Assembly (NCBI RefSeq): GCF_009377175.1
Contig: NZ_VJZD01000016.1
Span: 1 to 64,000 of the forward strand
DNA length: 64,000 bases
DNA from: Streptomyces adustus
GTDB taxonomy: Bacteria > Actinomycetota > Actinomycetes > Streptomycetales > Streptomycetaceae
Direction: 5' to 3'
The notes under the pieces were generated by a model, which saw only the letters and a list, made by a program, of their open reading frames with translations, was not told where the DNA came from and did not search any database. This document shows, in pieces, positions 403 to 28,127 of the stretch. Within the stretch, counting starts at the first letter, position 1. Each line of letters begins with the position of its first letter. The position numbers and the translations under genes were made by a program.

Positions 403-432
403 ACGCTAACCATTCGCTTTACATGACGTCAA
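403..432 (-). promoter_or_regulatory. Promoter with embedded operator, shared with the MFS gene
   Basis: Read leftward, TTGACG (432-427), an 18-nt spacer and TAGCGT (408-403) make a good vegetative promoter for the phosphotriesterase-like gene. The spacer holds GTAAAGCGAATG (422-411), which recurs with the same upstream TTGAC at 11056-11077 before the MFS transporter. An imperfect inverted repeat TTCGCTTT (413-420) / AAACGAA (435-441) overlaps it. The match to the other site is seen directly; operator function is inferred. Confidence 0.55.
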
Positions 433-551
433 CGAAACGAACATCACGAATATATTTTGCTCGTGTAGTTGCGTGAAGGCGGGAGATCGGAGCACGGAAG
501 GACCCGGACCGGGGATCCACATGCATGAGATTCATGTGAGACCATGTCAAT

Positions 552-568
552 CATTCATTTGATGAATG
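552..568. promoter_or_regulatory. Inverted repeat before P450 operon (LysR-box-like)
   Basis: CATTCAT-TTG-ATGAATG is a perfect 7-bp inverted repeat and fits the T-N11-A LysR binding pattern. A second short repeat, CATGA-GAT-TCATG, lies at 524-536. Both sit upstream of the P450 start at 595, and a LysR gene ends the same operon, so autoregulated control of the operon is a reasonable inference. Confidence 0.4.
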
Positions 569-594: not shown

Positions 595-1767
595 ATGAGC
601 ACACCGCCCACCTCCGACGTCGACCTCTTCGCCGACGACGTCCTCCTCGACCCCCACCCCGTCCACGCGGAGCTGCGGGAACTCGGCCCCGTGGTCCACC
701 TGCCGAAGAACGACGTCTACGCGCTGACGCGGTACGACGCCATCCGCGCGGCCCTCGGCGACTGGGAGTCGTTCTCCTCGACCTCGATCGCGTTCAACCC
801 GGCCGCCAACCAGGCCCTGACCGGCACCTCGCTGGCCTCCGACCCACCGGTGCACACCCAGCTGCGCGCCACCCTCACCGAGAACCTCTCGCCCCGCGCG
901 CTGCGCGGACTGAAGGGCCGGATCGAGGCGAAGGCCGACTCCCTGGTCGCCGAGCTCGTCGAGCAGGGCTCATTCGAAGCCGTCGACGCCCTCGCCCGCG
1001 CCTTCCCGCTGGAGGTCGTCGCCGACCTCATCGGTTTCACCGGCCGCGTGCGCGAGAACATGCTGCGCTGGGGCCAGGCCGCCATGCAGGTCATCGGCCC
1101 GATGAACCAGCGCACGGCCGAGAACTTCCCCATCGCCGGCGAGCTGTACGCCTGGTGCTCCGAGGTCGGCGCCGACGACCTGGCCGAGGGCTCCGTCGGC
1201 CGCGCGATCTTCGACGCCGAGGCTCGCGGCGCCATCCCCGCGGGCACCGCCGGCCACATCATCCACCAGTACCTCGGCGCCGGCGTCGACACGACCGTCG
1301 CCGCCATCGGCAACCTCGTCGCCCTCTTCGCCGCACACCCCGACCAGCTCGACCAGGTCCGCGCCGAATCCGCCCTGATACCGGCGGCGTTCAACGAATC
1401 ACTGCGGTACTGGCCCCCCGTCAACGTCTGGGGCCGCATCACCACCCGTGACGTCGAGATCGAGGGCGCCGTCGTCCCGCAGGGCGCCCAGATCGCGGTG
1501 CTGCTCGGCGCGGGCAACCGCGACCCCCGGCACTACGACAACCCCGACGCCTTCCTGGTCGGACGCAACCCCGTCGACCACCTGTCCTTCGGCTACGGCC
1601 CGCACGGCTGCGCGGGCCAAGGGCTCGCCCGTCTGGAGGCCCACGCCGTGATCGAGGCGCTGGCCCGGCGCGTCAGGCGCCTCGTCGTCGGACCCGAGGT
1701 CCGCGTCCCGAGCAACATCACCCGGAGCATCGAAGAGCTCCCCGTCCTGGAGGTCGTCCCCGCATGA
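595..1767 (+). CDS. Cytochrome P450 monooxygenase of the aromatic island
   Basis: This 390-residue soluble bacterial P450 has all family landmarks: the I-helix AGVDTT at residues 229-234, ExxR in ESLR, and the haem-binding FGYGPHGCAG with Cys339 as thiolate ligand. I chose the ATG at 595 because the N-terminus then resembles class I bacterial P450s and the ATG at 544 would put an upstream palindrome inside the gene. The stop overlaps the ferredoxin start (ATGA), so the two are translationally coupled, and the ferredoxin reductase follows. This supplies a complete electron chain NADH to FAD to FeS to haem. Beside gentisate genes, hydroxylation or O-demethylation of a benzoate-type acid is plausible, but the substrate is inferred only. 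Confidence 0.95.
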   Translation: MSTPPTSDVDLFADDVLLDPHPVHAELRELGPVVHLPKNDVYALTRYDAIRAALGDWESFSSTSIAFNPAANQALTGTSLASDPPVHTQLRATLTENLSPRALRGLKGRIEAKADSLVAELVEQGSFEAVDALARAFPLEVVADLIGFTGRVRENMLRWGQAAMQVIGPMNQRTAENFPIAGELYAWCSEVGADDLAEGSVGRAIFDAEARGAIPAGTAGHIIHQYLGAGVDTTVAAIGNLVALFAAHPDQLDQVRAESALIPAAFNESLRYWPPVNVWGRITTRDVEIEGAVVPQGAQIAVLLGAGNRDPRHYDNPDAFLVGRNPVDHLSFGYGPHGCAGQGLARLEAHAVIEALARRVRRLVVGPEVRVPSNITRSIEELPVLEVVPA

Positions 1768-1952
1768 GGATCGTTCTCGACCGCCCCCGCTGCGAGGGGC
1801 ACGGCCTGTGCGAGGAGGCCGCTCCGCAGCTCATGCACCTCGACGACGAGGGCGAGCTGGTGCTCGACCGCGAGCAGGTCGACGGGGGCGACGCCGCGCT
1901 CGCCCAGGCCGCCGCGCGGGTTTGCCCGGTCGCCGCACTGAGGGTCGAATGA
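1764..1952 (+). CDS. Small [3Fe-4S]-type ferredoxin, P450 redox partner
   Basis: A 62-residue ferredoxin of the actinobacterial P450-partner type. It has CEGHGLC near the start (Cys10, His13, Cys16) and CPVAAL near the end (Cys54), so only three cluster cysteines; the usual second ligand position is histidine, as in many [3Fe-4S] P450 ferredoxins. It shuttles electrons from the reductase encoded next to the P450 encoded before. Both of its ends are ATGA overlaps (1764-1767 and 1949-1952), so the three genes form a tightly coupled operon. The length is normal for the family. Confidence 0.95.
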   Translation: MRIVLDRPRCEGHGLCEEAAPQLMHLDDEGELVLDREQVDGGDAALAQAAARVCPVAALRVE

Positions 1953-3091
1953 GCACGCCCGCCCTGAAACGTGTCGTCGTCGTGGGCAACGGCATCGCCG
2001 GACTCACCGCCGCCCACACGCTGCGCGAGGCCGGATTCGACGGCGAGCTGACCGTCGTCGGCGACGAGCCCCACCCCGCCTACAGCCGGCCCGCCCTGTC
2101 GAAGGCGCTGCTCCTCGACGGCGACGACCTCACCTCGCACACGCTGCCCCCGGCCTCGCACGGGGCGAGCGAACTCCTCGGCGTGCGCGCGACCGGGCTC
2201 GACCCCGACCGACGGCGCGTCACGCTCGACGACGGCACCGCCCTGCCGTACGACGGCGTCGTCCTCGCCACCGGCTCCCGGGCGCGACGCCTGTCCGAGC
2301 TGCCCGACGAGGTCACCCTGCGCGGGCTCGACGACGCGCTGGCGCTGCGCCGCCGCCTGGCGAAGCGACCCTCCGTCCTCGTCGTCGGCGGCGGCCCGCT
2401 CGGCATGGAGATCGCCTCGGGGTGCCTGGCCGCCGGCTGCCCGGTCACCCTCGTCTCGCAGGGGCCGCCGCTGGCCGTCCAGCTCGGTCTCCACCTCGCC
2501 CAGATCTTCACCGCCGCCGCCCGCGAGCACGGGCTCACCGTGGTCCAAGGCGGTCCGGCCCGGATCGAGGGGCGACCCGGCGACGCCCGCGTTACGCTCG
2601 ACGACGGCACGGTGCTGCGCGCGGAGGTCCTGCTCACCGCGGTCGGTGACCTCCCGAACACCGAGTGGCTCACCGGCACCGGGCTCGTCGTGAACGGCGC
2701 CGTCCCGGTCGACGCGCGGGGCCTGGCCCGGCCGGGCGTCGCGGCGGTCGGGGACCTCGCCGCCTTCCCCACCCCACAGGGGCCGCGCCGGATCCCGCTG
2801 TGGAGCAGCGCCATCGACCAGGCGAAGGCCGCCGCGCGGGCGCTCGTCCACGGCGACGACGCCCCGCCGCTCGCGTTCCAGCCGTACTTCTGGACCGAGC
2901 AGTTCGGGCGGACCCTCAAAGCGGTCGGACAGCTGCCGGCGGCCGGGGAGCCGGTGTACGCGGACGGGGAACCCGGCGGCGGCCCGGCCCTGATGACCTG
3001 GCGGCAGGAGGACGGCAGCACCACCGCCGTCGCGCTCGACCACCGCATCCCCGTCCCCCGGCTGCGCCGCCTGACCCGGGCACCCGCATAG
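1949..3091 (+). CDS. FAD-dependent ferredoxin reductase
   Basis: A 380-residue NAD(P)H-ferredoxin reductase of the putidaredoxin-reductase type. The FAD fold starts at GNGIAGLTAA near residue 13, the NAD site is GGGPLGME about residue 150, and the late FAD motif AVGDLAAF contacts the cofactor. The C-terminal domain includes YFWTEQFG, typical of this class. The ATG at 1949 overlaps the ferredoxin stop and is the right start; the frame stays open upstream but that stretch is only ferredoxin DNA in another frame. It should reduce the ferredoxin at 1764-1952 and so drive the P450 at 595-1767. Confidence 0.95.
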   Translation: MSTPALKRVVVVGNGIAGLTAAHTLREAGFDGELTVVGDEPHPAYSRPALSKALLLDGDDLTSHTLPPASHGASELLGVRATGLDPDRRRVTLDDGTALPYDGVVLATGSRARRLSELPDEVTLRGLDDALALRRRLAKRPSVLVVGGGPLGMEIASGCLAAGCPVTLVSQGPPLAVQLGLHLAQIFTAAAREHGLTVVQGGPARIEGRPGDARVTLDDGTVLRAEVLLTAVGDLPNTEWLTGTGLVVNGAVPVDARGLARPGVAAVGDLAAFPTPQGPRRIPLWSSAIDQAKAAARALVHGDDAPPLAFQPYFWTEQFGRTLKAVGQLPAAGEPVYADGEPGGGPALMTWRQEDGSTTAVALDHRIPVPRLRRLTRAPA

Positions 3092-3101
3092 GGTGAGCGC
3101 C

Positions 3102-4022
3102 ATGAGCAGCGAGGAAGGCACCACGGCGTCGGGACTGGACCGGCTGGCGTCGGTCAATCTCAACCTGCTGGTGCCTCTTCTCGCGCTGCTGGAGGAACGG
3201 TCGGTGACGAAGGCGGCGGAGCGGGTCGGGCTGTCGCAGCCCGCCATGAGCCACGCCCTGACCCGAATGCGGCGCCTGCTGGGTGACGACCTCGTCGTGC
3301 GGCAGGGCAGCGGCGTCACGCTCACCCCGCGGGCCCTGGAGCTGATCGCGCCACTGCGCGGAACGCTGCAACAGGCGGCGCAGATCGTCGACTTCCCCTC
3401 CTTCGACCCCGCGACGGACCAGCGGGTCATCACCGTCGCCATGACGAACAGCACGGCGTTCGTCGTCGGCCCCCGGCTGACCCGGCTCGTCGCCGAGCGC
3501 GCGCCGCACGCCACCCTGCGGGTGCGCACCATCACCGTGCCGACCGAGGCCACCTTCACCGAAGGGGGCGTCGACGTCGTCCTGATCTCCGAGGGACACT
3601 CCTCGCCATATCCGCGCGAAAGGCTCTACGACGACCGGTGCGTGGTGGTGGCCGCGCCGGACACCCCGCCTCAGGCCGGCGCGCTCGACCTGCTCACCAC
3701 CGAACCGCACGTCGTCGTCGACACCGACCGGCGGGTCTTCCCGTACTCGGTGCTGGAGGACGAGGGCATCCCCTACCGCGTCGGGCTGTGGATCTCCGAC
3801 TTCCTGCTGGTGCCCTTCCACGTGGCCCGCGCCGGAGGTGTCGCCCTGCTGCGGTACCGGGTCGCCGCCACCATGCGCACCCTCGCCGACCTGCGGATCG
3901 AGGAGTTCCCGTTCCCGCTGCCCGGCCTCGGCATCGACATGGTGTGGAACCCGCGCCTGAACGACCGCCACTTCGTCGCCTGGCTGCGCACTCTGCTGTA
4001 CGACGCCGCCGTCGAGCGGTGA
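3102..4022 (+). CDS. LysR-family transcriptional regulator (NodD-like group)
   Basis: The 306-residue protein has the N-terminal winged helix (LLALLEERSVTKAAERVGLS then QPAMSHALTRMRRLLGDDL) and the LysR substrate-binding domain. The NVNLLVPL-type opening and PFHVARAGGVALL near the end resemble the NodD/NahR-like group, whose ligands are often aromatic. An in-frame GTG at 3093 is an alternative start; the ATG at 3102 has GGGTG about 6 nt before it. It lies 10 bp after the reductase gene on the same strand and is probably read with it. It likely senses a pathway aromatic acid; the palindrome at 552-568 is a candidate site. Confidence 0.9.
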   Translation: MSSEEGTTASGLDRLASVNLNLLVPLLALLEERSVTKAAERVGLSQPAMSHALTRMRRLLGDDLVVRQGSGVTLTPRALELIAPLRGTLQQAAQIVDFPSFDPATDQRVITVAMTNSTAFVVGPRLTRLVAERAPHATLRVRTITVPTEATFTEGGVDVVLISEGHSSPYPRERLYDDRCVVVAAPDTPPQAGALDLLTTEPHVVVDTDRRVFPYSVLEDEGIPYRVGLWISDFLLVPFHVARAGGVALLRYRVAATMRTLADLRIEEFPFPLPGLGIDMVWNPRLNDRHFVAWLRTLLYDAAVER

Positions 4023-4047: not shown

Positions 4048-4656
4048 TCAGGTCAGCAGCCGCACCCAGCTGGCGCTCAGCTCTTCGAGCATCTGCTCGC
4101 GGGTGACCTTCCAGTCGGCGTCGCCCCAGTGCTGGGCGACGTAGTCCAGCTCGGCCATCGCCAACACCCCCCGGAAACGGCGCTGGTGGGGCGCGAGGCG
4201 CCCGGCCGCCGTCAGCCCGTCCTCGATGTCGCTGATGGCCTCCTCCAGCCACCGCTCCACCAGGTCGCGCAGCTCCGGATCGACCGCCGCGGCGTCCCGG
4301 CCCACCCGGATGATCGGCCGGATCTCCGGCCAGCTGTCGGCGGTACGCCGCAGCCAGCCGCCGATCGCCTCCGGCGTGCCCGCGGCCACGGTCGCGACCA
4401 GGTCCTGCGCCGTGGAACCGTGCTCGGGCGAACGCACGCGCTGGAGCGCCTCGTTGAGCCGCTCGTCGATGAGCGCCTTCATCAGATCGCTGCGGGAGGG
4501 GAAGTACGCGTAGAAGGTCACCCGGGTGGTGCCCGCGGCGGTCGCGATGTCGTCGACCTTGGTGGCGGCGTACCCCTTCGTGGTGAACAGTTCGAGCCCG
4601 GACTCCAGCAGCAGGCGGCGCGTCATCTGCTTCTGCGCCTGTCGAAGGTTCGCCAT
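4048..4656 (-). CDS. TetR-family transcriptional regulator
   Basis: A 202-residue TetR repressor with the HTH TKVDDIATAAGTTRVTFYAY at about residues 32-51, followed by FPSRSDLMKALI, and an all-helical ligand domain with conserved tryptophans (GGWLRRTADSWPEI). It is convergent with the LysR gene, 25 bp away. Upstream of its start a spaced repeat CGTCCG (4685-4690) / CGGACG (4705-4710) could be its own operator. It probably controls the flavin hydroxylase operon that ends just upstream of it, or itself; the ligand is unknown. Confidence 0.9.
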   Translation of the reverse strand: MANLRQAQKQMTRRLLLESGLELFTTKGYAATKVDDIATAAGTTRVTFYAYFPSRSDLMKALIDERLNEALQRVRSPEHGSTAQDLVATVAAGTPEAIGGWLRRTADSWPEIRPIIRVGRDAAAVDPELRDLVERWLEEAISDIEDGLTAAGRLAPHQRRFRGVLAMAELDYVAQHWGDADWKVTREQMLEELSASWVRLLT

Positions 4657-4792: not shown

Positions 4793-6058
4793 TCACGCCG
4801 CCGTGCCCTGGGCGGCCGTCCGCGGGATCGCGGAGGACAGCGGGATCGGCTCGAACATCGGCGGTTCCTGGTCCGGGGTCAGCGCGGTCGGGCCGTACAG
4901 CCAGTCCACGAAGGAGTAGTCGGCGGTGGCACGGGCACGCAGCAGGGCGTTGCGCTGCTCGCGGGGGACGCCGTCGAGGTGCCACAGCTCGCCCCACGCG
5001 CGGGAGGTGGTCACCACCCGGCGGCAGTGCTCGGGACGCACGGACTCGTACGCGGCGAGCGCGGCGTCCCAGTCCGGGGTGCCGTCGGCGGCGCGATGGC
5101 GGGCGACGTGCTCACCGAGGACCCACCCGTCCTCGATCGCCATGATCGCGCCCTGCGCGATGTACTGGAGCGGCGGGTGCGCGGAGTCGCCGAGCAGGGC
5201 GATCCGGCCGTGCACCCAGTTCATGATCGGGTCGCGGTCGAACATCCGCCACCACTTGTCCCGCCACATGAACGGCAGACCGTCGCGTACGAAGTCGCAG
5301 GTGTCGGCGAAGGCGGCGTCGAGCTCGTCCGGGGTGCCCCAGTCCTCCCGGCCGGCCAGCGCCTTGGGCGACTCGAAGACCGCGACCTGGTTGAGCATCT
5401 CGCCGCCGCGCAGGCCGTAGTGGACGAAGTGGCAGCCGGGGCCGATGTACACCACGACCTCGCCGAGGTCCACGGACTTCACCCGCTCACGGTCGGCGGG
5501 GACCGTGCCCCGGTAGGCGACGTAGGCGGAGGAGACGGGCCGGTCGTCGACGAGCAGCCTGCGGGCGACGGAGTGCAGGCCGTCGGCCGCGATCACCACA
5601 CCGGCCTCGTGCGTCCGGCCGGAGGCCAGGGTCACCCGGGCGCCGACGGCGGTGTTCTCGTACGAGGTCACCTGCGCGTCGTTGATCAGCTCGACTCCGG
5701 CTCGCCCGCAGGCGCGCAGCAGCAGGCCGTGCAGGTCGCTGCGGTGGATGACCAGGTACGGGAAGCCGTAGCGCCGCTCCAGGTCCCGCAGGTCGAGCCG
5801 GGTCAGTTCGTCGCCGTCGACGGCGTCGCGCATGATCATCGCGTCCGGGACGACGCCGAGGCTCTTGGCCTCCTGGAGGAGGCCGTAGTCGTCGAGGATG
5901 CGGGTGCAGTTGGGGGCGAGCTGGATGCCGGCGCCGACCTCGCCGAAGGCGGGGGCGCTCTCCAGCAGGCGGACGGCGAGGCCCTGGCGGGTCAGCGAGA
6001 ACGCCGCGCCGAGGCCGCCGATGCCGCCGCCGACGACGATCACATCAGGATGGGACAT
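4793..6058 (-). CDS. FAD-dependent aromatic hydroxylase, 3-hydroxybenzoate 6-hydroxylase-like
   Basis: A 421-residue group A flavoprotein monooxygenase. It shows the Rossmann GGGIGGLGAAFSLTRQG near residue 9, the DG motif in AADGLHSVARRLL, and the GD motif GRIALLGDSAHPPLQYIAQG that binds FAD ribityl. GAGIQLAPNCTRIL is typical of salicylate/3-hydroxybenzoate hydroxylases. The start ATG at 6058 follows a GGAGTGA-like ribosome site; the long upstream frame is shadow. It lies 14 bp after the maleylpyruvate isomerase gene in the same operon as hydrolase and gentisate dioxygenase. Given those neighbours the best guess is NAD(P)H-dependent 6-hydroxylation of 3-hydroxybenzoate to gentisate; a salicylate 5-type substrate is the alternative. 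Confidence 0.88.
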   Translation of the reverse strand: MSHPDVIVVGGGIGGLGAAFSLTRQGLAVRLLESAPAFGEVGAGIQLAPNCTRILDDYGLLQEAKSLGVVPDAMIMRDAVDGDELTRLDLRDLERRYGFPYLVIHRSDLHGLLLRACGRAGVELINDAQVTSYENTAVGARVTLASGRTHEAGVVIAADGLHSVARRLLVDDRPVSSAYVAYRGTVPADRERVKSVDLGEVVVYIGPGCHFVHYGLRGGEMLNQVAVFESPKALAGREDWGTPDELDAAFADTCDFVRDGLPFMWRDKWWRMFDRDPIMNWVHGRIALLGDSAHPPLQYIAQGAIMAIEDGWVLGEHVARHRAADGTPDWDAALAAYESVRPEHCRRVVTTSRAWGELWHLDGVPREQRNALLRARATADYSFVDWLYGPTALTPDQEPPMFEPIPLSSAIPRTAAQGTAA

Positions 6059-6072
6059 GGGGGGTTCACTCC

Positions 6073-6738
6073 TCAGAGCCACGGGCCGAGCTCGGGGGCG
6101 TCGGCAAGCGTGTGGGGGCGGCCGGCCAGCCAGGCGGCGACCTCGGGCAGCGGGCCGTCGGGCAGCGCGGTCAGCTGCCGCTTGGCACGGATCTCTTCGA
6201 CCAGAGCGGCCAGGAAGCCCTTCGGCAGGTCGGCGAAGGTGACGACGCCGGTGCGAAGGTCGACGGCGTGGACGCACGCCTCGCGGGCGCGCATCCACGG
6301 CAGCTCGGTGGCGGGAACGGTACGGCCCTGGGCGGTGACGACCTCATGCCGCCACTGCTCGTCGGTGAGCCGGTGCAGTCCCTCGGCCAGGCGCTGCTCG
6401 GACTCGGTCAGCCAGGAACGCAGCTCGTCGGCCGACAGGGCGGGCCCGCGGGCGATGCCCGCGGCGCGCTCCTCGGCGGAGGCGTACATCGGCGTCTTCT
6501 CGCCGGTGGCCGCCCAGTGCACGAGGTTGCCCAGGGCGTCGGCGTTGGCCGCGACGTGTGCGGCGAGGTGCTTCCGTGTCCAGCCGGGCAGCGCGCTGGC
6601 AGCCGCGAAGCCGTCCTCGTCGAGGCCCGCGACCGCATCGAGCATCAGCTCGGTGCCGGTGCGGGCCCAGGCGCGCGCGTCGGCGAGGGACCGCGTGGGA
6701 GTGGTCCGCGTACCGGTGGTCCGCGTGGGGGTCGTCAT
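6073..6738 (-). CDS. Maleylpyruvate isomerase, mycothiol-dependent type
   Basis: A 221-residue DinB-like fold enzyme of the TIGR03083 maleylpyruvate isomerase family. The metal triad of the family is visible as His in GWTRKHLAAHVA (near residue 50) and Glu/His in REACVHAVDL. It isomerises maleylpyruvate, the gentisate ring-cleavage product, to fumarylpyruvate; in actinobacteria the cofactor is mycothiol (family knowledge). The ATG at 6738 overlaps the hydrolase stop by four bases (TCATG on the top strand), so it is coupled to it. The N-terminus carries a TTPTRTTGTRTTPTR low-complexity run that may not be conserved. Confidence 0.9.
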   Translation of the reverse strand: MTTPTRTTGTRTTPTRSLADARAWARTGTELMLDAVAGLDEDGFAAASALPGWTRKHLAAHVAANADALGNLVHWAATGEKTPMYASAEERAAGIARGPALSADELRSWLTESEQRLAEGLHRLTDEQWRHEVVTAQGRTVPATELPWMRAREACVHAVDLRTGVVTFADLPKGFLAALVEEIRAKRQLTALPDGPLPEVAAWLAGRPHTLADAPELGPWL

Positions 6739-7571
6739 GCCTCGATCACCTTGTTGGTGCAGGCGCCCAGGCCGGTGATCTCGGTGACCACGGTCTGGCC
6801 GGGCAGCAGGAAGACCTTGGGGTCGCGGGCGTTGCCGACGCCGGCCGGGGTGCCGGTGGCGATGATGTCTCCGGGGCGCAGGGTGATGACGGTGGAGATG
6901 TACTGCACCAGGAAGACCGGGTCGAACAGCAGCGTGCCGGTGTCGTCCTGCTGCATGACCCGGCCGTCGACGGTCGTCGTCACCTGGAGGGCGGGGCGGG
7001 TTCCGCCGACCTCGTCGGGGGTGACGACGTAGGGGCCGACCGGGGTGGTGGCCTCCCAGATCTTGCCCTGGGTCCATTCGATGGTGCGGAACTGCCAGTC
7101 GCGCACCGAGATGTCGTTCATGACGGTGAAGCCCGCGATGGCGTCGGCCGCCTGCTGCTCGTCGGCGCGGCGCACCTGCTTGCCGATGACGACGGCGAGT
7201 TCGACCTCCCAGTCGAGCGCGTCGGTCTCGGCGGGCTTGACGAGGTCGTCGTTCGCGCCCAGCAGGGTGTCGGCGAACTTCGGGAAGAGCGTGGGATGGG
7301 CGGGCAGGTCCCGGCCCATCTCCTTGATGTGGTTGGTGTAGTTGTGGCCGACGCAGACGACCTTGGAGGGGTTGGGGACGACCGGCGCGAAGTCCGCGCC
7401 GTCGACCGGGTAAGTGACCCCGGAAACGGCCGACTTGGCCTGCGCCTTCGCCTTCCAGTCCGGCTGGGCGAACAGCTCGCCGAGATCGGAGTGGCCGAGG
7501 TCGACGAGGACGTCGCCGTCGAGGCGGACCGCCCGGGTACCGTCGGCGGTGCGGAGGGTGGCGAGCTTCAT
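6735..7571 (-). CDS. Fumarylpyruvate hydrolase (FAH family)
   Basis: A 278-residue FAH-fold hydrolase. The ligands for the divalent metal lie in LDWEVELAVVIGKQ (two Glu) and in MNDISVRDWQF (Asp), and the C-terminal TGTPAGVG loop is typical. It splits fumarylpyruvate into fumarate and pyruvate, the final gentisate step. The true start is the ATG at 7571 with AAGGA about 5 nt before it; the apparent N-terminal extension to 7778 is DNA of the inserted transposon. The TnpB element begins only about 15-40 bp upstream, so this gene and the two after it are cut off from the dioxygenase promoter unless read-through occurs. Confidence 0.92.
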   Translation of the reverse strand: MKLATLRTADGTRAVRLDGDVLVDLGHSDLGELFAQPDWKAKAQAKSAVSGVTYPVDGADFAPVVPNPSKVVCVGHNYTNHIKEMGRDLPAHPTLFPKFADTLLGANDDLVKPAETDALDWEVELAVVIGKQVRRADEQQAADAIAGFTVMNDISVRDWQFRTIEWTQGKIWEATTPVGPYVVTPDEVGGTRPALQVTTTVDGRVMQQDDTGTLLFDPVFLVQYISTVITLRPGDIIATGTPAGVGNARDPKVFLLPGQTVVTEITGLGACTNKVIEA

Positions 7572-7750: not shown

Positions 7751-8947
7751 GTGACGGACCCCTCCGTGAAGCGGGCATTCAAGTACCGCTTCTATCCGAC
7801 CGATGCGCAGGCAGCGGAGCTGTTGCGCACGTTCGGCTGTGTGCGGAAGGTCTACAACCTGGCTCTCACGGCACGTACCGAGGCATGGACGCGGCAGGAG
7901 CGGGTGACCTACAACCAGACGTCGGCGATGCTGACGGCCTGGAAGAAGACCGGGGAACTCGCCTACCTCAACGACGTCTCCTCGGTACCGCTTCAGCAGG
8001 CCCTGCGTCACCTCCAGGTGGCGTTCACCCACTTCTTCGCCAAGCGGGCCAGGTATCCGCGCTTCAAGTCGCGGAAGAAGTCGCGGAAGTCGGCGGAGTA
8101 CACCGCCAGCGCGTTCCGGTTCCGCGGCAAGCAGCTGACCCTGGCGAAAATGGCGGAGCCGCTGGACATCGCGTGGTCCCGGCCGCTGCCCGAGGGTGCG
8201 TCGCCGTCCACGGTGACCGTCTCTCAGGACTGTGCAGGCCGGTGGTTCGTGTCCCTGCTGTGCGAGGACGCGTCCGTCGGGTCGATGCCTGCCACGGAGC
8301 GGACAGTAGGTGTGGACGTCGGACTCGGCCACCTGCTGACCCTCTCGACCGGGGAGAAGATCGCCAACCCCCAACACGAACGGCGTGACCGGGCCCGGCT
8401 CGCGAAGGCCCAGCGCAACCTCGCCCGCAAGGTCACAGGTGACGGCGCGAACCGGGCTAAGGCTCGCCGGAAGGTCGCCAAAGTTCATGCACGCATCGCC
8501 GACCGCAGGCGCGATCACCTGCACAAGCTCACCACTCGGCTCGTTCGTGAAAATCAAACGATCGTGATCGAGGACCTCACCGTCCGCAACCTGCTGAAGA
8601 ACCACAACCTCGCCCGGGCCATTAGTGACGTGGCGTGGAGCGAGTTGCGAAGCATGCTGGAGTACAAGGCTCGCTGGTACGGCCGCGAAGTGATCGTGGT
8701 CGACCGCTGGTTCCCCTCCTCCAAACTCTGCTCCACCTGCGGCAGCCTGCAGAACAGGATGCCGCTGCATGTCCGTACCTGGACATGTGGCTGCGGGGTG
8801 ACCCATGACCGGGACGTGAACGCGGCGAAGAACCTTCTGGCCGTCGGGCTGACGGCATCTGTCTGTGGAGCTGGTGTAAGTCCTCAACGGGGTACTCCGG
8901 GCGGGCAGTCGGCGATGAAGCAGAAACCCCTGCGGCACGAGCCGTAG
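7751..8947 (+). CDS. tnpB: TnpB RNA-guided nuclease (OrfB-type transposon protein)
   Basis: A 398-residue TnpB. The N-terminal helical domain opens KRAFKYRFYPTDAQ. The RuvC-like site is complete: Asp189 in GVDVGLGHLL, Glu274 in IVIEDLTVRNLL, and Asp355 in THDRDVNAAKNLL. The zinc finger is CSTC (327-330) with CGC (346-348). Family members cut DNA at a site matched by a guide RNA transcribed from the transposon right end. Nothing visible disables this copy, but there is no TnpA transposase here, so it cannot move by itself unless helped in trans. It is transcribed opposite to the surrounding catabolic operon. Confidence 0.93.
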   Translation: MTDPSVKRAFKYRFYPTDAQAAELLRTFGCVRKVYNLALTARTEAWTRQERVTYNQTSAMLTAWKKTGELAYLNDVSSVPLQQALRHLQVAFTHFFAKRARYPRFKSRKKSRKSAEYTASAFRFRGKQLTLAKMAEPLDIAWSRPLPEGASPSTVTVSQDCAGRWFVSLLCEDASVGSMPATERTVGVDVGLGHLLTLSTGEKIANPQHERRDRARLAKAQRNLARKVTGDGANRAKARRKVAKVHARIADRRRDHLHKLTTRLVRENQTIVIEDLTVRNLLKNHNLARAISDVAWSELRSMLEYKARWYGREVIVVDRWFPSSKLCSTCGSLQNRMPLHVRTWTCGCGVTHDRDVNAAKNLLAVGLTASVCGAGVSPQRGTPGGQSAMKQKPLRHEP

Positions 8948-8983: not shown

Positions 8984-10144
8984 TCAGGCGTCCTTCTGGG
9001 TGCGGTCGAGCTTGAGCGCCTCGAAGACGGGCGCGTCGGAGAAGCGGAACAGGTCGAGGCCCGCGGAGTCGGAGTCGGTGCGGCCGGCTTCGGACCGGGC
9101 GGAGAACGGCTCCCAGGACGGGACGACGAACAGGTCGCCCCGCGTCACCGACCAGGACCTCTCGCCGACGGCGACGGTGCCGGAGCCGTCGAAGACCTGG
9201 TAGACGGAGGAGCCGGTCTCGCGCACCGGCGCGGTCTCGGCGCCCCGGGCCACGCGGTGGAACTCGGCGCGGATGGTCGGCAGGACGTCACTGCCGTCGT
9301 GCGGGTTGGTGTAGCGCACAGCGGCGTGGCCGGGCTCGACCGTGCCGCCGAAGCCCTCCTTCTCCAGCAGGAGTTGGTCGCGCAGCGCCGCGTCGGTGTG
9401 CTCCCATTTGTAGGACAGCAGCGGGCTGCCCGGGGTGGCGGGGGCGGCCGCGAGGGGGCGCAGGCCCGGGTGGCCCCACAGCCGCTCGGAGCGGGATCGG
9501 CTCGGTGTGGTCCGTTCGGCCTCGGTGATCTCGTCGCGGCCGAACTCGAAGAACTGCGCCTCGGTGGCGTACTGGAACGGGATGTCCAGGCCGTCGATCC
9601 ACGCCATGGGCTCGTCGGTGGCGTTGTGGTGGGCGTGCCAGTTCCAGCCGGCCTGCGGCAGGAAGTCGCCGCGGTTCATGGGCACGGGGTCGCCGCCGAC
9701 GACGGTCCACACGCCGGAGCCCTCGACGACGAAGCGGAAGGCGTGCTGGGTGTGCCGGTGCTCGGGCGCGTCCTCGCCGGGCATGAGGTACTGGATGGCC
9801 GCCCACAGCGTCGGCGTGGCGAAGGGCCTGCCGCCGAGGGAGGGGTTGGCCAGCGCGATGGCCCGGCGCTCGCCGCCGCGGCCGACCGGAACCAGGTCGC
9901 CCGCCTGCGCGGCGAGCTCCCGCAGCCGCTCCCAGCGCCATACGTGCGGCACGGCGCGCGAGCGCGGGTGGGCGGGCATCAGGTCGCCGATCTCGGTCCA
10001 CAGCGGGACGAGGAGTTCCTGCTCGAAGCCCCGGTAGAGCTCTTCGAGCGCCGGGGTGACGTCGGGCTGTCCGTGGGCGGCGACGGCGTGCAGCCGGACC
10101 GGGGAACCCGGAGCGTGGTCTTGGGTGGTGGAGGACTCGGTCAC
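8984..10144 (-). CDS. Gentisate 1,2-dioxygenase (bicupin)
   Basis: A 386-residue two-cupin ring-cleavage dioxygenase. The first cupin has HRHTQHAFRFVVEGSG then GDFLPQAGWNWHAHHN, matching the Fe(II) histidines of gentisate dioxygenases; the second cupin has VYQVFDGSGTVAVGE and VPSWEPFSA with weaker ligands, as usual. WAAIQYLMPGEDAPEHRH is a family hallmark. I use the GTG at 10144, since the divergent IclR gene starts at 10222 and the upstream ATG at 10210 would run into its ribosome site. It opens the ring of gentisate to maleylpyruvate, feeding the isomerase and hydrolase downstream across the TnpB insertion. Confidence 0.93.
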   Translation of the reverse strand: MTESSTTQDHAPGSPVRLHAVAAHGQPDVTPALEELYRGFEQELLVPLWTEIGDLMPAHPRSRAVPHVWRWERLRELAAQAGDLVPVGRGGERRAIALANPSLGGRPFATPTLWAAIQYLMPGEDAPEHRHTQHAFRFVVEGSGVWTVVGGDPVPMNRGDFLPQAGWNWHAHHNATDEPMAWIDGLDIPFQYATEAQFFEFGRDEITEAERTTPSRSRSERLWGHPGLRPLAAAPATPGSPLLSYKWEHTDAALRDQLLLEKEGFGGTVEPGHAAVRYTNPHDGSDVLPTIRAEFHRVARGAETAPVRETGSSVYQVFDGSGTVAVGERSWSVTRGDLFVVPSWEPFSARSEAGRTDSDSAGLDLFRFSDAPVFEALKLDRTQKDA

Positions 10145-10221
10145 TGTTTCAGCGTGCCGGGTGTCTGCTGTAGGAGCATATGGATTCTGGAGAGCAGAAC
10201 AGTGGAGCATGGAGGATCACC

Positions 10222-10998
10222 GTGGACAAGGAGCTCAAGACGCCGCCGCCCTATCCCATCGCCAGCGTGGACCATGCGCTGCGGGCGGCGACCATCCTGC
10301 AGATGGAGGGCGACGCGACGGTGGCGCAGCTCGCCGAGCGTCTGGGGGTCGCGAGGTCGACGGCTCACCGGATTCTGGCGATGCTCGTCTACCGGGACTT
10401 CGCCGTGCGCGGCGAGGACCGCGTCTATCGCGCGGGCCCGGTACTGGAGCTGGCCGCGCACTCCCAGTCTCTCGTGTCCCGGCTGCGGGCGACGGCTCTG
10501 CCCCATCTGCACCGGGTCGTCGATCTCGTCGGCGAGACCACGAACCTGATCGTGCGCACCGGGGACACCGTCCGGTTCATCGCCAGCGTCGAGTGCCGGC
10601 AGGCCCTTCGGGTCGGTTCGCGGGAGGGCATGGTGTTCCCGGCACACCGCACCACGGCGGGTCTGCTCCTGCTCGCCGAGCTGGACGAGGAGGAGCTGGA
10701 GAAGGCCTACGCCCCCGAGCGCTACCGGGATCGCCCGTCCGACCGCCCCGACCTCGCGCGGCTGCGGGCGGAGCTGAGGCGCCTGCGCCGCAACGGCTTC
10801 GCCGTCAACAGGGAGCGGTCCGAGCGCGGACTCGTCGCCGTCGGTGTCCCCGTACGCGACGAGGACGGCACCGCACTGGCCGGACTCTCCGTCTCGATGC
10901 CCAGCGTGCGCTACGACCCGCATCAGCTCCAGCCGCTGGTCAAGTCCCTGGAAGGCGCGGCGCACGCGCTGGAGCGGGACTTTCTCCATCAGAGCTGA
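10222..10998 (+). CDS. IclR-family transcriptional regulator
   Basis: A 258-residue IclR protein. The N-terminal winged helix is VAQLAERLGVARSTAHRILA and the effector domain has TTNLIVRTGDTVRF and the late GLVAVGVPVRDEDG. The GTG at 10222 is preceded by GGAGG at 10211-10215 with 6-nt spacing, which decides the start over the ATG at 10180. It diverges from gentisate dioxygenase with 77 bp between starts, and IclR proteins often control aromatic pathways from such a position. It could also bind the GTAAAGCGAATG blocks at 411-422 and 11066-11077. Confidence 0.93.
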   Translation: MDKELKTPPPYPIASVDHALRAATILQMEGDATVAQLAERLGVARSTAHRILAMLVYRDFAVRGEDRVYRAGPVLELAAHSQSLVSRLRATALPHLHRVVDLVGETTNLIVRTGDTVRFIASVECRQALRVGSREGMVFPAHRTTAGLLLLAELDEEELEKAYAPERYRDRPSDRPDLARLRAELRRLRRNGFAVNRERSERGLVAVGVPVRDEDGTALAGLSVSMPSVRYDPHQLQPLVKSLEGAAHALERDFLHQS

Positions 10999-11055
10999 AC
11001 ACCCGAGCCGTCACGCTTCCATCAGATCTATTTTCTTTCTCTCTCGCACACATCA

Positions 11056-11085
11056 TTGACGCGACGTAAAGCGAATGTCATTCTC
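11056..11085 (+). promoter_or_regulatory. Promoter/operator block before MFS gene, copy of that at 403-432
   Basis: TTGACG (11056-11061) followed by GTAAAGCGAATG (11066-11077) matches the leftward block at 432-411: 21 of 25 positions agree, and the orientation to the gene is the same. The -10 (near 11079-11085) is poor. A shared regulator for the two genes is inferred. Confidence 0.5.
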
Positions 11086-11209: not shown

Positions 11210-12847
11210 ATGACGCTCAACAACGGGACACCTGTCTCCCATGGCCCAACCGCGGGGGCCGCCCGGACGCCGGGCTACGCGGGAACACTGGCTGCCGCCT
11301 GCGGGGCGGTCTTCGTGGCCCAGGTCGCGAACGCGCTGCCCGCCTCGCTGCTCGGACTCTTCCAGGAGGACCTGAGCACCCACGGATCCCAGCTGACCTG
11401 GATCACCGCGGCGTTCATGATCGCCGTGGTCTGCTTCGAGTTCACCTTCGGTGTCCTCGGCGACCTGTTCGGACGGCGAAGGCTCGTCGTGGGCGGCACG
11501 GCCCTGGTCGCCGTGGGCAGCACCGTGGCCGCGCTCGCGCCGACCGTCCAGGTGCTGTGGATCGGCGCCGCGCTGAACGGACTGGGCGCCGGAGCCATGT
11601 TCCCCGGCTCGCTCACCGCGATCACCGCCCTGACCCGCGGCATGCGGCAGCGGGCGCACGCGGTGGCCGTCTGGAGCGGCTTCCTGTCCGCGGGCGCCGC
11701 CGTCTCGCCCCTGGTCGGCGGCATGTTCGCCAAGGTCGGCTCGTGGCGCGGCTCCTTCTGGGTGCTCGTCGGACTGGCCCTGGTCAGCATGGTGCTCACC
11801 CTGCTGCTGGCCACCGAGTCGACGGCGCCCGAGGGCCGTAAATTCGACGTACCCGGCCAGATCACCTTCGCCATCGGCCTCATCCTGGTGCTGTACGGCG
11901 CCGTCGAGGGGCCGGAGTCGGGCTGGAGCACCCTGCCCGTGCTGCTCTCCCTCGCCCTCGGTGCGGTCTTCCTCGCCGCCTTCGTCGTGGTGGAGCTGGG
12001 GGCCGAGTCCCCGATCTTCGACCTGAGGCTGTTCCTCAACCGGCCGTTCGCCGTGTCGTCCGTCGTCGCGGTCATCGGGATGCTCGCCTTCCTCGGCGCC
12101 TGCTTCACGACGAGCATGTGGATGGGTCCCGTGCAGCATCAGGACCCGATGCGGGTCGGCATCCTCTTCCTCCTGCTCCAGGGACCCGCGTTCGTCCTCA
12201 TCCCGGTCGTCTCGCGACTCCTGCACCGGGTCGCCGCGTCCTGGCTGCTGACCTCGGGCTTCGTCCTGCTCGCGGCCGGCTGCCTGCTGTTCACCCGACT
12301 CGACGTCACCGACCGGGGACTCGGCGCGTTCGTGGCGCCCGCCCTGCTGATCGGCATCGGCTTCGCCCTGACCGTCAGCTCCGTGACGACCGTGGCGCTG
12401 AACAGCGTGCCCCCGAACCTGGCGGGCATGGCCAGCGCCACCACCAACATGCTGCGCGACCTCGGCTTCGCCCTCGGCCCGGTCGTCGTCGGCGCCGTGG
12501 CCCTCAGTCATGCGGGGTCGACGTTCGCGGCGAACCTGCCCGGCGCCGGCCTGCCGGCCGCTCAGTCGGCGGCAGCACAGGCGATCGCCGCGGCCGACGG
12601 CCCCCTCGCCGTCAATGGCCTGCCGCCCACCGTTCCGGGTTCAGCCGCCCACAGCCTGGCCCTCGACGCCCTCGGCAGCGGCTTCTCCACCGCGTACTGG
12701 GTGTGCGGCATCGCGGCCGCCGTCGCCGCCGCACTCACCGCCTTCGGCATGATCGGCAGCCACGCCCGCGGAACAGCGGGGCACGAGGCCGACGCGCCCG
12801 GCCAGGACGGGAAGTCCGAACCGGTCGCCGAGGCCGCCCGACCCTGA
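11210..12847 (+). CDS. MFS transporter, DHA2 (14-TM) drug/proton antiporter type
   Basis: A 545-residue membrane protein with about 14 hydrophobic segments. Motif A is GVLGDLFGRRRLVVGG and motif C-like text occurs in GFLSAGAAVSPLVGG. The ATG at 11210 gives a short cytoplasmic tail; the frame upstream to 11075 is not hydrophobic or conserved-looking and contains the promoter. DHA2 members export drugs and organic acids using the proton gradient; here, at the end of the gentisate island and sharing its operator, it may move an aromatic acid or intermediate. It ends at a strong hairpin (12911-12949). Confidence 0.9.
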   Translation: MTLNNGTPVSHGPTAGAARTPGYAGTLAAACGAVFVAQVANALPASLLGLFQEDLSTHGSQLTWITAAFMIAVVCFEFTFGVLGDLFGRRRLVVGGTALVAVGSTVAALAPTVQVLWIGAALNGLGAGAMFPGSLTAITALTRGMRQRAHAVAVWSGFLSAGAAVSPLVGGMFAKVGSWRGSFWVLVGLALVSMVLTLLLATESTAPEGRKFDVPGQITFAIGLILVLYGAVEGPESGWSTLPVLLSLALGAVFLAAFVVVELGAESPIFDLRLFLNRPFAVSSVVAVIGMLAFLGACFTTSMWMGPVQHQDPMRVGILFLLLQGPAFVLIPVVSRLLHRVAASWLLTSGFVLLAAGCLLFTRLDVTDRGLGAFVAPALLIGIGFALTVSSVTTVALNSVPPNLAGMASATTNMLRDLGFALGPVVVGAVALSHAGSTFAANLPGAGLPAAQSAAAQAIAAADGPLAVNGLPPTVPGSAAHSLALDALGSGFSTAYWVCGIAAAVAAALTAFGMIGSHARGTAGHEADAPGQDGKSEPVAEAARP

Positions 12848-24940: not shown

Positions 24941-25301
24941 CGCATCCCCTCCGGTCTGTCGATCCTATCGATCACCAAGGCTGGATCGTCCTGCCGGTCC
25001 TCGGTCTCAGGCAGCTTCAGCCGTGTCGACCACGACCGGCGAAGCCGACGGCAGTGAGGTTGCGGACCGCGCGTTGAAGGACCGCGCCGGACGCCTTCGA
25101 CGGCCGCCCCTCGGCGGGCCTCCAGTAACCTCAACTCCCCTGGTTCCCAACCTCGTTGGGCGGTCCTGGTAGGGACAGGCTACGGCCCCGGTCGGTCGAA
25201 GGTCTGGCGGCGAGGGCCGCCATCCTGAAGTCTGGCCGCACATGCCTGACAGCGGGCTCCTCCCGGGAGGGGTACCGACACGACGACGGAGGCTGCATTC
25301 G
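24941..25301. other. Gene-free stretch before the lone P450
   Basis: About 360 bp with no convincing gene on either strand. It must contain the start signals of both the divergent Imm32-like gene and the P450. No repeat is obvious. Confidence 0.5.
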
Positions 25302-26495
25302 ATGGACCGAGCGGACGACGACGCACGGAAGATCCGCAGGGATCCCACCGGACCCGGCTGCCCGGTCAGCCATGGGGACGACGGTACGTGGCAGGTGCGC
25401 GGCTACTCGGCGGCGCGCGCCGTTCTGCGCAGCACCGGCACCGTGCAGGCAGGCCTGGGCATCGAGACCGTCGAGAAGCTGCCCGCCCGGATCCGGCGGC
25501 CGGTGCTGTACCGCGACGGGCCCGAACACCGGGAACACCGTCGTCAGACCGCCCGCTACTTCACACCCCGCCGCGTGGACGAGCACTACCGGGAACTCAC
25601 CGAACGCGTCACGCAGAAGCACCTCGACGCCCTGCGCACCGAGGGCGAGGCCTGGCTGGAGGACCTCACCTTCGGCGTCTCGATCGACGTGGCGTGCGGG
25701 GTGATCGGCCTGACCCACAGCAGACCGGGCATTCAGGGCCGCCTGGAGCGCTTCTTCCCCGAGAAGTTCGGCAAGCCCGGGTTCACCAGTCCGCACGGGA
25801 TCTACTGGTTGTTCCGCCAGAACAGCAACTGGCTGCGGATCTACTTCGCCGACGTCCGCCCGGCCGTCCGCGCCCACCGTGAACGCCCCGCCGACAACCT
25901 GATCTCCCACCTGATCGCGGAAGGCTGCTCGAACCCCGAGATCCTCGGCGAATGCCTCACCTACGCCGCTGCCGGAATGATCACCACCCGCGAGTTCATC
26001 TCCGTCGCCGCATGGCATCTCTTCACCGACGCCGCCCTGCGCGAGCGCTACTCGAACGGGAACGAGACCGAACGCCTCGCGGTGATCCACGAGATCCTGC
26101 GCCTGGAACCCGTGGTCGCCCGGCTGAGCCGGCGGACCACCGGCTCCGTCGAGGTGCCGGGCTCCGACGGCCCGGTCACCGTGCCCGCCGGCGCGCTCGT
26201 CGACATCCTCGTGGACGACGCCAACACCGACCCGGAGGCTGTGGGTGCCACGCCCACGGCGGTCTGCCCCGGTCGGCCGGCGACGACCGGGCGGTACGCG
26301 GCCGCCCTGTCCTTCGGCGACGGACCGCACCGCTGCCCCGGTGCGGACATCGCCATGATGGAGACCAACGTCTTCCTCGGCCACCTCTTCGCCCTGGAGG
26401 GCATCCGCATGCTCACACCGCCCCGCGTCACGTTCCAGGACGAGATAGGGGGTTATGTGATCCGCGGACTGCGCGTGGCCGTCGACCGAGGGTGA
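25302..26495 (+). CDS. Cytochrome P450, stand-alone
   Basis: A 397-residue P450 with the haem loop FGDGPHRCPGAD (Cys345), the ExxR helix EILR, and an I helix AAAGMITTRE that has MITT instead of the usual acid-Thr pair. WLFRQNSNWLRIYFADVRPA is a distinctive F/G region. The ATG at 25302 has GGAGG nine bases upstream; an in-frame ATG at 25242 is less likely. There is no ferredoxin, reductase or biosynthetic gene beside it. The altered I-helix acid may mean unusual chemistry such as peroxide use. The substrate is unknown. Confidence 0.93.
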   Translation: MDRADDDARKIRRDPTGPGCPVSHGDDGTWQVRGYSAARAVLRSTGTVQAGLGIETVEKLPARIRRPVLYRDGPEHREHRRQTARYFTPRRVDEHYRELTERVTQKHLDALRTEGEAWLEDLTFGVSIDVACGVIGLTHSRPGIQGRLERFFPEKFGKPGFTSPHGIYWLFRQNSNWLRIYFADVRPAVRAHRERPADNLISHLIAEGCSNPEILGECLTYAAAGMITTREFISVAAWHLFTDAALRERYSNGNETERLAVIHEILRLEPVVARLSRRTTGSVEVPGSDGPVTVPAGALVDILVDDANTDPEAVGATPTAVCPGRPATTGRYAAALSFGDGPHRCPGADIAMMETNVFLGHLFALEGIRMLTPPRVTFQDEIGGYVIRGLRVAVDRG

Positions 26496-26645
26496 TGCCC
26501 TGCCGTCCGTGTCCTGGAGGCTCGTTCAAGAAGGTGACGCCCGCGCCGAACCCTCGGGTCGTGACCGAGCCCGTCGGATTCCGGGATGCATGATGGCAGC
26601 CCACGGCCGCCCGACTTCCCCCTTCGCGGGGCATGGGGGTTCACC

Positions 26646-28127
26646 TTGTCCGTACCCGCCCCGCGTACCCGGACCGCCACCGGATCCGCGCTCGCCGCAC
26701 TTGCCGCGCTCGCCCTGGCGGCAGGGTGCGGCGCGCCGCGTACCGAGGCGACCGCGCTCGCCCGTTCGCAGCCGGCCTCCGTCCCCGTGCCGAGCGTCTC
26801 CCCGTCGCCGGCCCTCACCGCGCGGGCGACGGAGGACCTGCGCAACCCCCCGCAGGTCGTGAGCCACGACGGACTGCTCAAGACCCGGATCGTCGTCGAG
26901 CGCAGGAAGGTGCGCCTGGCGGGGCGCGAGCTGTGGGCCCTGACGTACAACGGGATGTACATGCCGCCCACGCTGCGCCTGCGGCCCGGGGACCGGATGG
27001 AGGTCTCCTTCGAGAACAGGCTCGACGAGCAGACGAACCTGCACGTGCACGGCATGCACGTCTCCCCCGTCGGCGATTCGGACAACATCTTTCTGACGGT
27101 CGAGCCGGGCAAGTCGTCCACCTACAGGTACGCCTTCCCTAAGAGCCTGGAACCGGGCACGTACTGGTACCACCCGCACCCGCACACGCTCTCCGCCGGC
27201 CAGACCGCGGGGGGCATGGCCGGTCTGATCGTGGTCGACGGTCTCGACGACTATCTGCCCGCGGCGCTGCGCGGGATCACGGAACGCGTCGTCGCGCTCA
27301 AGGACTTCCAGCTCGTGGGAGACGAGGTCAAGACCGCGAACCTGAAGATCGGCGCCCCCACGACCCGTACCGTCAACGGGCAGCTCGACCCGCGGATCCG
27401 GATCAGGCCCGGCGAGACCCAGTTGTGGCGCCTCGCGAACATCGGGGCCAACATCTTCTACAAGGTGCAGCTGCCGGGCACCCGGTTCCATGTCGTCGCC
27501 CAGGACGGCTACCCGGTGAACCGCGTCTACTCCGTCGACTCCCTGGTCATCCCCGCCGGCGCCCGCTACGACGTGCTCGTCCAGGGCCCGAAGGCCGGAG
27601 TGTCGGAGCTGCGGACCCTGCCGTACAACACCGGCAAGGCCGGCAACCAGTTCCCCCTGGCGACCCTGGCCACGGTCCGCTCCGAAGGCGAACCCATGCG
27701 GCCCGCGACCCTGCCCACCACCTTCGCCCCGGTGGACGATCTCGGGAAGGAGCCCGTCGCGGGACGCAAGACGGTCACCTTCACGGAGAACAAGGCCGGC
27801 ACGGTCTTCTACATCAACCACAAGCTGTTCGACCATCACCGCGTCGACTTCCGGGCCAAGCTCAACACCGTCGAAGAGTGGACGATCAAGAACGACAGCG
27901 ACGAGGTCCACTCGTTCCACGTCCACACCAACGACTTCCAGGTGATGAGCATCAACGGCAAGCCGCAGACCAACTACGGCTTTCAGGACACCGTCGACGT
28001 ACCGCCGCGCGGGAACATGGTGGTGCGGATCCGGTTCCTCGACTATCCGGGCAAGACGGTCCTGCACTGCCACATCCTCAACCACGAGGACGCGGGGATG
28101 ATGGCCGTGCTCCAGATCGAGAAGTGA
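26646..28127 (+). CDS. Lipoprotein multicopper oxidase
   Basis: A 493-residue three-cupredoxin multicopper oxidase. The copper ligands are present: LHVHGMHVSP (His133/His135), YWYHPHPHT, HSFHVHTNDF, and the T1/T2 segment HCHILNHEDAGMM (His474-Cys475-His476). A TTG start at 26646 after a GGGGG box gives a standard lipoprotein signal with lipobox LAAGC; an ATG at 26586 would give an odd 20-residue N-extension. The protein should sit on the outer face of the membrane and oxidise phenols or cuprous ion with oxygen. There is no copper sensor nearby. Start choice is my judgment. Confidence 0.9.
   Translation: MSVPAPRTRTATGSALAALAALALAAGCGAPRTEATALARSQPASVPVPSVSPSPALTARATEDLRNPPQVVSHDGLLKTRIVVERRKVRLAGRELWALTYNGMYMPPTLRLRPGDRMEVSFENRLDEQTNLHVHGMHVSPVGDSDNIFLTVEPGKSSTYRYAFPKSLEPGTYWYHPHPHTLSAGQTAGGMAGLIVVDGLDDYLPAALRGITERVVALKDFQLVGDEVKTANLKIGAPTTRTVNGQLDPRIRIRPGETQLWRLANIGANIFYKVQLPGTRFHVVAQDGYPVNRVYSVDSLVIPAGARYDVLVQGPKAGVSELRTLPYNTGKAGNQFPLATLATVRSEGEPMRPATLPTTFAPVDDLGKEPVAGRKTVTFTENKAGTVFYINHKLFDHHRVDFRAKLNTVEEWTIKNDSDEVHSFHVHTNDFQVMSINGKPQTNYGFQDTVDVPPRGNMVVRIRFLDYPGKTVLHCHILNHEDAGMMAVLQIEK

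Follow-up and report, generated by a model that had tools for sequence, protein, structure and literature searches.

A CYP199-related cytochrome P450 of Streptomyces adustus as the probable entry to a multi-operon catabolic module ending in gentisate degradation

CYP199A2 and CYP199A4 from Rhodopseudomonas palustris are class I three-component cytochrome P450 systems that use [2Fe-2S] partners, and CreJEF of Corynebacterium glutamicum cresol catabolism is, like the system described below, a three-part P450 encoded in an actinobacterial aromatic catabolic cluster, which acts on phosphorylated alkylphenols together with CreHI and CreD. In the aromatic catabolism of the actinobacterium Rhodococcus jostii RHA1, the CYP199 p-methoxybenzoate O-demethylase PbdA uses one cognate reductase, PbdB; Arg84, Ser87 and Ser237 of PbdA bind the benzoate carboxylate, and substitution of these clamp residues reportedly reduced affinity and activity (PMC11530827). 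Another report (PMC9867520) describes a pathway of R. jostii RHA1 and Rhodococcus ruber R1 with 3-hydroxybenzoate 6-hydroxylase and gentisate dioxygenase, in which the Rieske enzyme VanAB is the proposed 3-methoxybenzoate demethylase of strain R1. Here, a stretch of 64,000 nucleotides from Streptomyces adustus (contig NZ_VJZD01000016.1, positions 1 to 64,000; hereafter the window) was analyzed, which encodes near its start a P450 with its own ferredoxin and ferredoxin reductase. It is probable that this three-gene operon (unit A) forms a catabolic module with two further operons (units B and C), in which the P450 performs the first step in degrading a neutral aromatic ester, lactone or ketone by way of 3-hydroxybenzoate and gentisate to fumarate and pyruvate.

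The three open reading frames (ORFs) of unit A, which a sequence-only reading had taken for a complete three-part P450 system with ATGA overlaps, are all present and supported by Pfam (Table 1). The P450 translation contains the heme cysteine in FGYGPHGC, the ExxR motif as ESLR, and the acid–alcohol pair of the I helix in AGVDTT. Its class I partners, the ferredoxin and the flavin adenine dinucleotide (FAD) reductase, are encoded as separate genes; this resembles CYP199A2 and CYP199A4, except that the ferredoxin is of the CxxHxxC Fer4 type, and differs from PbdA with its single reductase. The P450/ferredoxin and ferredoxin/reductase junctions are both ATGA overlaps, which suggests that the three genes are co-transcribed. 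Among 82 loci considered, of which 80 were countable, the 4-base P450/ferredoxin overlap is conserved in 73 and the CxxHxxC motif in all 80; the 4-base ferredoxin/reductase overlap occurs in 37, with other spacings in the remainder. Since the P450/ferredoxin overlap and the motif recur across loci, the three-gene arrangement is not a product of chance. An ATG at position 544 would extend the P450 upstream, but the start at 595 is preferred because the orthologue matches start there and an operator-like repeat covers positions 552–568.

By both sequence and fold, the nearest solved proteins to the P450 are PbdA and the CYP199A enzymes. The identity over ungapped columns is 42% to PbdA and 36% to CYP199A2 and CYP199A4, and the corresponding Foldseek values are 40–41% and 33–35%; by convention, members of one P450 family share about 40% identity or more. 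The predicted structure (27 rows, predicted local distance difference test (pLDDT) 78.4) bears out CYP199 kinship and nothing further, with the CreJ structure (PDB 5gwe) also among its Foldseek matches. In the tree, for which the program gave a long-branch warning and the midpoint root serves for drawing only, the orthologues form a 14-row clade (support 100/100) nested among 17 unnamed relatives of 40–48% identity; together they are sister to CYP199, and seven other P450s of the genome fall outside. The kinship to CYP199-type enzymes raised in the earlier reading thus holds in the sequence search, tree and fold, and placement in a secondary-metabolism clade, an outcome which that reading had named as counting against it, was not found.

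Despite this kinship, the carboxylate clamp of PbdA has not been retained. In all 96 orthologue rows (at least 60% identity, some genomes being counted twice), Arg84, Ser87 and Ser237 of PbdA are replaced by a gap, Gly and Gln, respectively, and the pocket residue Phe291 is replaced by Trp in 94 of the 96, which sets the P450 apart from PbdA; clamp loss likewise distinguishes it from CYP199A2 and CYP199A4. The loss of the clamp residues and the replacement of Phe291 speak for a different substrate, probably an uncharged one, although a carboxylate could conceivably be bound in another way.

The remaining units were defined by comparison across genomes. A scan of genome contigs yielded 136 P450 relatives, of which the best 80 were kept; their titles name 18 genera, and flanks of up to 10 kb per locus were used, some being shortened by contig ends. 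The P450 orthologues share 70–91% identity in 18 actinobacterial genera. Unit B consists of six genes, encoding a pseudo-phosphotriesterase (pseudo-PTE), a phosphotriesterase (PTE), a NicC-like FAD monooxygenase (FMO), an HSL-type esterase, an MBL hydrolase and a CocE-type hydrolase, whereas unit C comprises the four genes for 3-hydroxybenzoate and gentisate degradation. At least four unit-B genes lie near the P450 in 58 of the 80 loci and at least three unit-C genes in 31; both units are nearby in 28 loci and no gene of either in 14, and the gene order of the units varies among lineages. The genomes of all 14 latter loci encode the FMO and gentisate dioxygenase elsewhere. The FMO was found in 29 of 30 chosen genomes, the sole miss being a Rhodococcus draft. 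Gentisate dioxygenase has no copy near the P450 in 48 loci, of which 47 were submitted (L064 was omitted) and 46 searched; it is encoded elsewhere in 42 of these genomes. All 19 FMO-centred regions (L121–L139), picked mostly because the surroundings of the P450 had no unit B or only a part of it, contain at least five of the six unit-B genes and ten also contain unit C, L139 being a duplicate of the L049 region.

The window opens at base 1 of its contig (C77), within the pseudo-PTE gene. Codon 118 onward of this gene opens another contig of the same genome (C2), where it is followed by the live PTE, the FMO, the HSL-type esterase, the MBL hydrolase and the CocE hydrolase; hence, the S. adustus genome holds the full set of units A, B and C. 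Outside the actinobacteria, a Caballeronia insecticola plasmid has a single run of genes that comprises TetR, the P450 (60% identity), the ferredoxin, the reductase and the complete unit B. At the limits used, this plasmid was the only plasmid matched by the FMO, the live PTE and the CocE hydrolase, and a search of a phage collection gave no match.

Co-occurrence within the genus points in the same direction. Among 392 genomes, 14 carry a P450 orthologue (at least 78% identity). The FMO is present in all 14 carriers and in 2 of the 378 others (Fisher 6.5e-24), and gentisate dioxygenase, counted at E values no higher than 1e-100 (61 genomes positive), in all 14 carriers and 47 of the 378 others (Fisher 1.2e-12), both values being calculated regardless of shared ancestry. 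Together with the recurring adjacency in differing gene orders, this gives good support to the earlier proposal that an upper step supplies the gentisate route. The proposed link to gentisate is correct, and the comparison across genomes makes it much stronger than a single window would have allowed.

Unit B contains a pair of PTE paralogues of very different character. In the live paralogue, all 80 rows retain the six residues that we take, by PTE numbering, to be metal-binding (apart from a gap at Asp301 in a single row), whereas in the pseudo-PTE, His57, Lys169, His201, His230 and Asp301 are absent from 81 of 81 rows (three have gaps at His230); rows shorter than 250 aa, including the window's own fragment, were excluded. 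The pseudo-PTE is seen without its live paralogue in the window, L045, L047 and L064 only, where the available sequence ends beside the gene; it lies at positions 2–349 of the window (minus strand) and 3–617 of L120. It has invariant segments of its own, e.g., GGYFLTPQTNPPTPWP in six rows, and their retention indicates that it is under selection; its predicted structure (6 rows, pLDDT 58.7) was too poor for use. We know of no comparable dead/live PTE pair, and a search of the open-access literature gave no precedent. As the unit-B proteins fell into broad families only, with the esterase resembling LipP1 and chloramphenicol hydrolase below both cut-offs, the families do not allow the substrate to be named.

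Two operator-like motifs are conserved in these loci. GCTTTAC-N5-GTAAAGC, with up to three mismatches, has 110 matches in 102 sequences. Of these matches, 98 are found no more than 250 bases ahead of a P450, pseudo-PTE, MFS or TetR gene, in regions that make up 3% of the bases; with 60 sets of shuffled arms, the mean number there was 2.2 and the highest 18. For CATGCA-N5-TGCATG, with up to two mismatches, 70 of 105 matches fall in the same promoters (shuffles: mean 2.15, maximum 14), mostly 66–102 bases before the P450, with a weaker second copy often at 34–37. The total counts prove nothing, since reversed sequences match nearly as often (90 versus 110 for the TetR type and 83 versus 105 for the CATGCA type); position alone is telling. 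The motifs and promoter classes were chosen after the sites had been seen. In the 64-kb window, the Streptomyces form of the TetR-type motif has exactly two exact matches against 0.00 expected. The TetR and LysR proteins are the presumed ligands of the two motifs, respectively, and the gentisate operon probably answers to the IclR protein.

Concerning unit C, the hydroxylase aligns with 4bjy, which we take to be the RHA1 3-hydroxybenzoate 6-hydroxylase, and the segments CHF and PPLQY, with the presumed active-site residues His213 and Gln301, are both aligned and retained. PRK08163 is the best family for this protein, yet its score (Table 1) lies below the curated cut-off of 459 bits. TIGR02272 is likewise the best family for the gentisate dioxygenase, yet below its cut-off of 442.1 bits, and its gene lies beside those for the hydroxylase and the FAA hydrolase. 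The 3-hydroxybenzoate-type hydroxylase and ring-cleavage genes that had been placed beside the P450 are real, as are the LysR, TetR, isomerase, FAA hydrolase and IclR genes; the immediate divergent neighbor of the P450, however, is the PTE homologue and not a gentisate gene. In this lower part, the module resembles the pathway of R. jostii RHA1 and R. ruber R1, but upstream it has a P450 and six unit-B genes instead of VanAB. An IS605 OrfB/TnpB-type protein is encoded at 7751–8947, between the hydrolase and dioxygenase genes of the gentisate operon.

Table 1. Features of the P450 and gentisate region in the window.
Feature	Position	Strand	Basis or remark
Pseudo-phosphotriesterase, codons 1–116, cut by contig end	2..349	-	Pfam PTE; divergent from P450
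Putative TetR operator, GCTTTAC-N5-GTCAACG	416..434		between two divergent operons
Putative LysR operator, CATGCATGAGATTCATG	520..536		center about 67 bases before P450 start
Second inverted repeat, CATTCATTTGATGAATG	552..568		spacing same in other Streptomyces loci
Cytochrome P450, CYP199-related, clade of its own	595..1767	+	Pfam p450; PbdA 9g9q best solved relative, E 6.6e-82; tree
Ferredoxin, CxxHxxC...CP motif, 62 aa	1764..1952	+	Fer4_15; kin of P450-linked ferredoxins in PDB
FAD/NAD(P)H ferredoxin reductase	1949..3091	+	Pyr_redox_2; HcaD/TodA-type relatives
LysR-type regulator, presumably of the P450 operon	3102..4022	+	Pfam HTH_1 and LysR_substrate; matched in 55/81 loci
TetR regulator	4048..4656	-	TetR_N; matched in 63/81 loci
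3-Hydroxybenzoate 6-hydroxylase	4793..6058	-	4bjy matched at 403 bits versus 190 for the next protein; PRK08163 346.3 bits
Mycothiol-dependent maleylpyruvate isomerase	6073..6738	-	TIGR03083 above cut-off; MDMPI_N
Fumarylpyruvate hydrolase (FAA hydrolase family)	6735..7571	-	PF01557
Gentisate 1,2-dioxygenase, start codon uncertain	8984..10210	-	TIGR02272 254.6 bits
IclR-type regulator	10180..10998	+	BhcR/PcaR-type matches, below cut-off
Second copy of TetR-type operator	11054..11072		before MFS gene
MFS transporter, TetR-type operator in front	11210..12847	+	MFS_1; 41% to EmrB-like gene of locus L087

In the proposed route, the FAD reductase would take electrons from NAD(P)H and hand them on by way of the CxxHxxC ferredoxin. 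The P450 would use them to hydroxylate or O-dealkylate a neutral, probably aromatic substrate, with unit A controlled by the LysR protein at CATGCA-N5-TGCATG near −67. Unit B, accompanied by the MFS transporter and by the TetR protein acting at TTTAC-N5-GT(A/C)AA, would further oxidize and hydrolyze the product by ester, lactone or ketone chemistry to 3-hydroxybenzoate, from which 3-hydroxybenzoate 6-hydroxylase, gentisate dioxygenase, maleylpyruvate isomerase and fumarylpyruvate hydrolase of unit C would lead to fumarate and pyruvate. The computed comparisons themselves show the gene content, its conservation and co-occurrence, the lost carboxylate clamp and the conserved operator-like motifs; we infer the order of these steps, the pairing of regulators with motifs, the junction at 3-hydroxybenzoate and the class of substrate. 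Xanthones or benzophenones, naphthoquinones, coumarins or other lactones, diaryl ethers, m-cresol and benzoxazinoids were weighed as substrates from general knowledge, and no choice among them was possible.

Several points weigh against this pathway. No analysis here names a substrate. Two genomes, G155 (L121) and G160 (L122), have units B and C next to each other but lack a P450 orthologue, and L122 still has the final part of the LysR gene at that spot; thus, the P450 looks like a losable upstream step and may be peripheral to the module. Gentisate dioxygenase is missing from 4 of the 46 searched genomes (one Nocardioides, two Microbacterium and one draft Arthrobacter), so that gentisate is not obligatory, and the 25-kb Caballeronia region contains no unit-C gene, the rest of that genome not having been searched. 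Neither operator-like motif was detected before the gentisate operon, and the Fisher values take no account of shared ancestry. In the Rhodococcus locus L047, finally, the ORF upstream of the P450, the sole copy scanned, encodes a nonribosomal peptide synthetase (NRPS) with condensation, AMP-binding/adenylation, carrier and thioesterase domains.

This NRPS bears on the explanation that the module serves to synthesize or modify a secondary metabolite, with the gentisate genes merely frequent neighbors. Actinomycetes are rich in P450s, with 33 P450 matches in this genome, and a large same-strand ORF lies upstream of the P450 in the Rhodococcus loci L047, L051, L054, L056, L067 and L068; it ends about 100 bases short of the P450 in L051 and immediately ahead of it in L067. 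The NRPS slightly raised our estimate for a biosynthetic function and slightly lowered that for the catabolic module. However, the upstream ORF is present in six of nine Rhodococcus loci and in no other genus in the clustering, and the NRPS is read as a lineage neighbor, although the P450 may have a biosynthetic role there. Given the separation from the seven other P450s of the genome, the retention of orthologues across 18 genera of actinobacteria as well as on a plasmid of a betaproteobacterium, and the strong co-occurrence with ring-cleavage genes, biosynthesis is the least likely of the alternatives. Slightly less improbable is that the P450 O-demethylates a methoxybenzoate, e.g., 3-methoxybenzoate, to 3-hydroxybenzoate, as the sequence-only reading had suggested, or meta-hydroxylates benzoate, feeding the gentisate operon directly. 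The closest solved relatives are indeed CYP199 p-methoxybenzoate enzymes, and a 3-hydroxybenzoate operon adjoins the P450. Yet this function agrees poorly with the missing carboxylate clamp and the Trp at Phe291, leaves the six co-inherited unit-B genes and their near-perfect co-occurrence unexplained, and would differ from R. ruber R1, where a Rieske enzyme is proposed for this step. Unlikely too, though the foremost of the three, is a module that chiefly detoxifies a toxic lactone or ester by MFS efflux, hydrolysis and oxidation, with gentisate degradation as a frequent, optional sink. The EmrB-like MFS gene bears the same TetR-type motif, the esterase has the LipP1- and chloramphenicol-hydrolase-like matches mentioned above, and some carriers lack gentisate dioxygenase; on the other hand, a close-type gentisate dioxygenase (at least 83% identity) occurs in 13 of the 14 P450 carriers of the genus versus 15 of the 378 others.

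The multi-operon catabolic module is apparently undescribed: in agreement with the earlier reading, which knew of no precise account of the combination, none was found in the open-access literature, most subscription papers lying outside the search, and no unit B or gentisate link was found in the accessible part of PMC11530827. Should the catabolic route be correct, many soil actinobacteria would share a complete pathway for an as yet unassigned compound, which would suggest that the molecule is abundant and derives from plants, fungi or humic matter, and the defined gene set with its two predicted operators offers a means of finding it. The P450 would then be a CYP199-related enzyme of altered specificity, of use in biocatalysis, and the conserved dead/live PTE pair would be unusual for a catabolic pathway. 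The chances appear evenly balanced for the wider picture of a mobile, widespread and undescribed pathway for a common natural compound, in which the clamp-less P450 and the NicC-like monooxygenase open the molecule, the dead PTE is an obligate partner of the live one, and three regulators tie in 3-hydroxybenzoate and gentisate degradation.

As many as 18 of the 81 loci, including L013, L019, L021, L057 and L060, encode a 3-oxoacid CoA-transferase pair and a 3-oxoadipyl-CoA-type thiolase, often beside the gentisate genes. Although gentisate degradation requires neither, these enzymes may perhaps act on another fragment of the substrate. At 25242–28127, the window contains another P450 gene together with a multicopper oxidase gene, which comes directly after it on the same strand. 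On plasmid pR1CP1 of Rhodococcus opacus 1CP (L119), a P450 of 45–47% identity, accompanied by a ferredoxin and a reductase of its own, is encoded in the vicinity of npcA and of genes for a dioxygenase and maleylacetate reductase, representing another P450 branch on a different ring-cleavage route.

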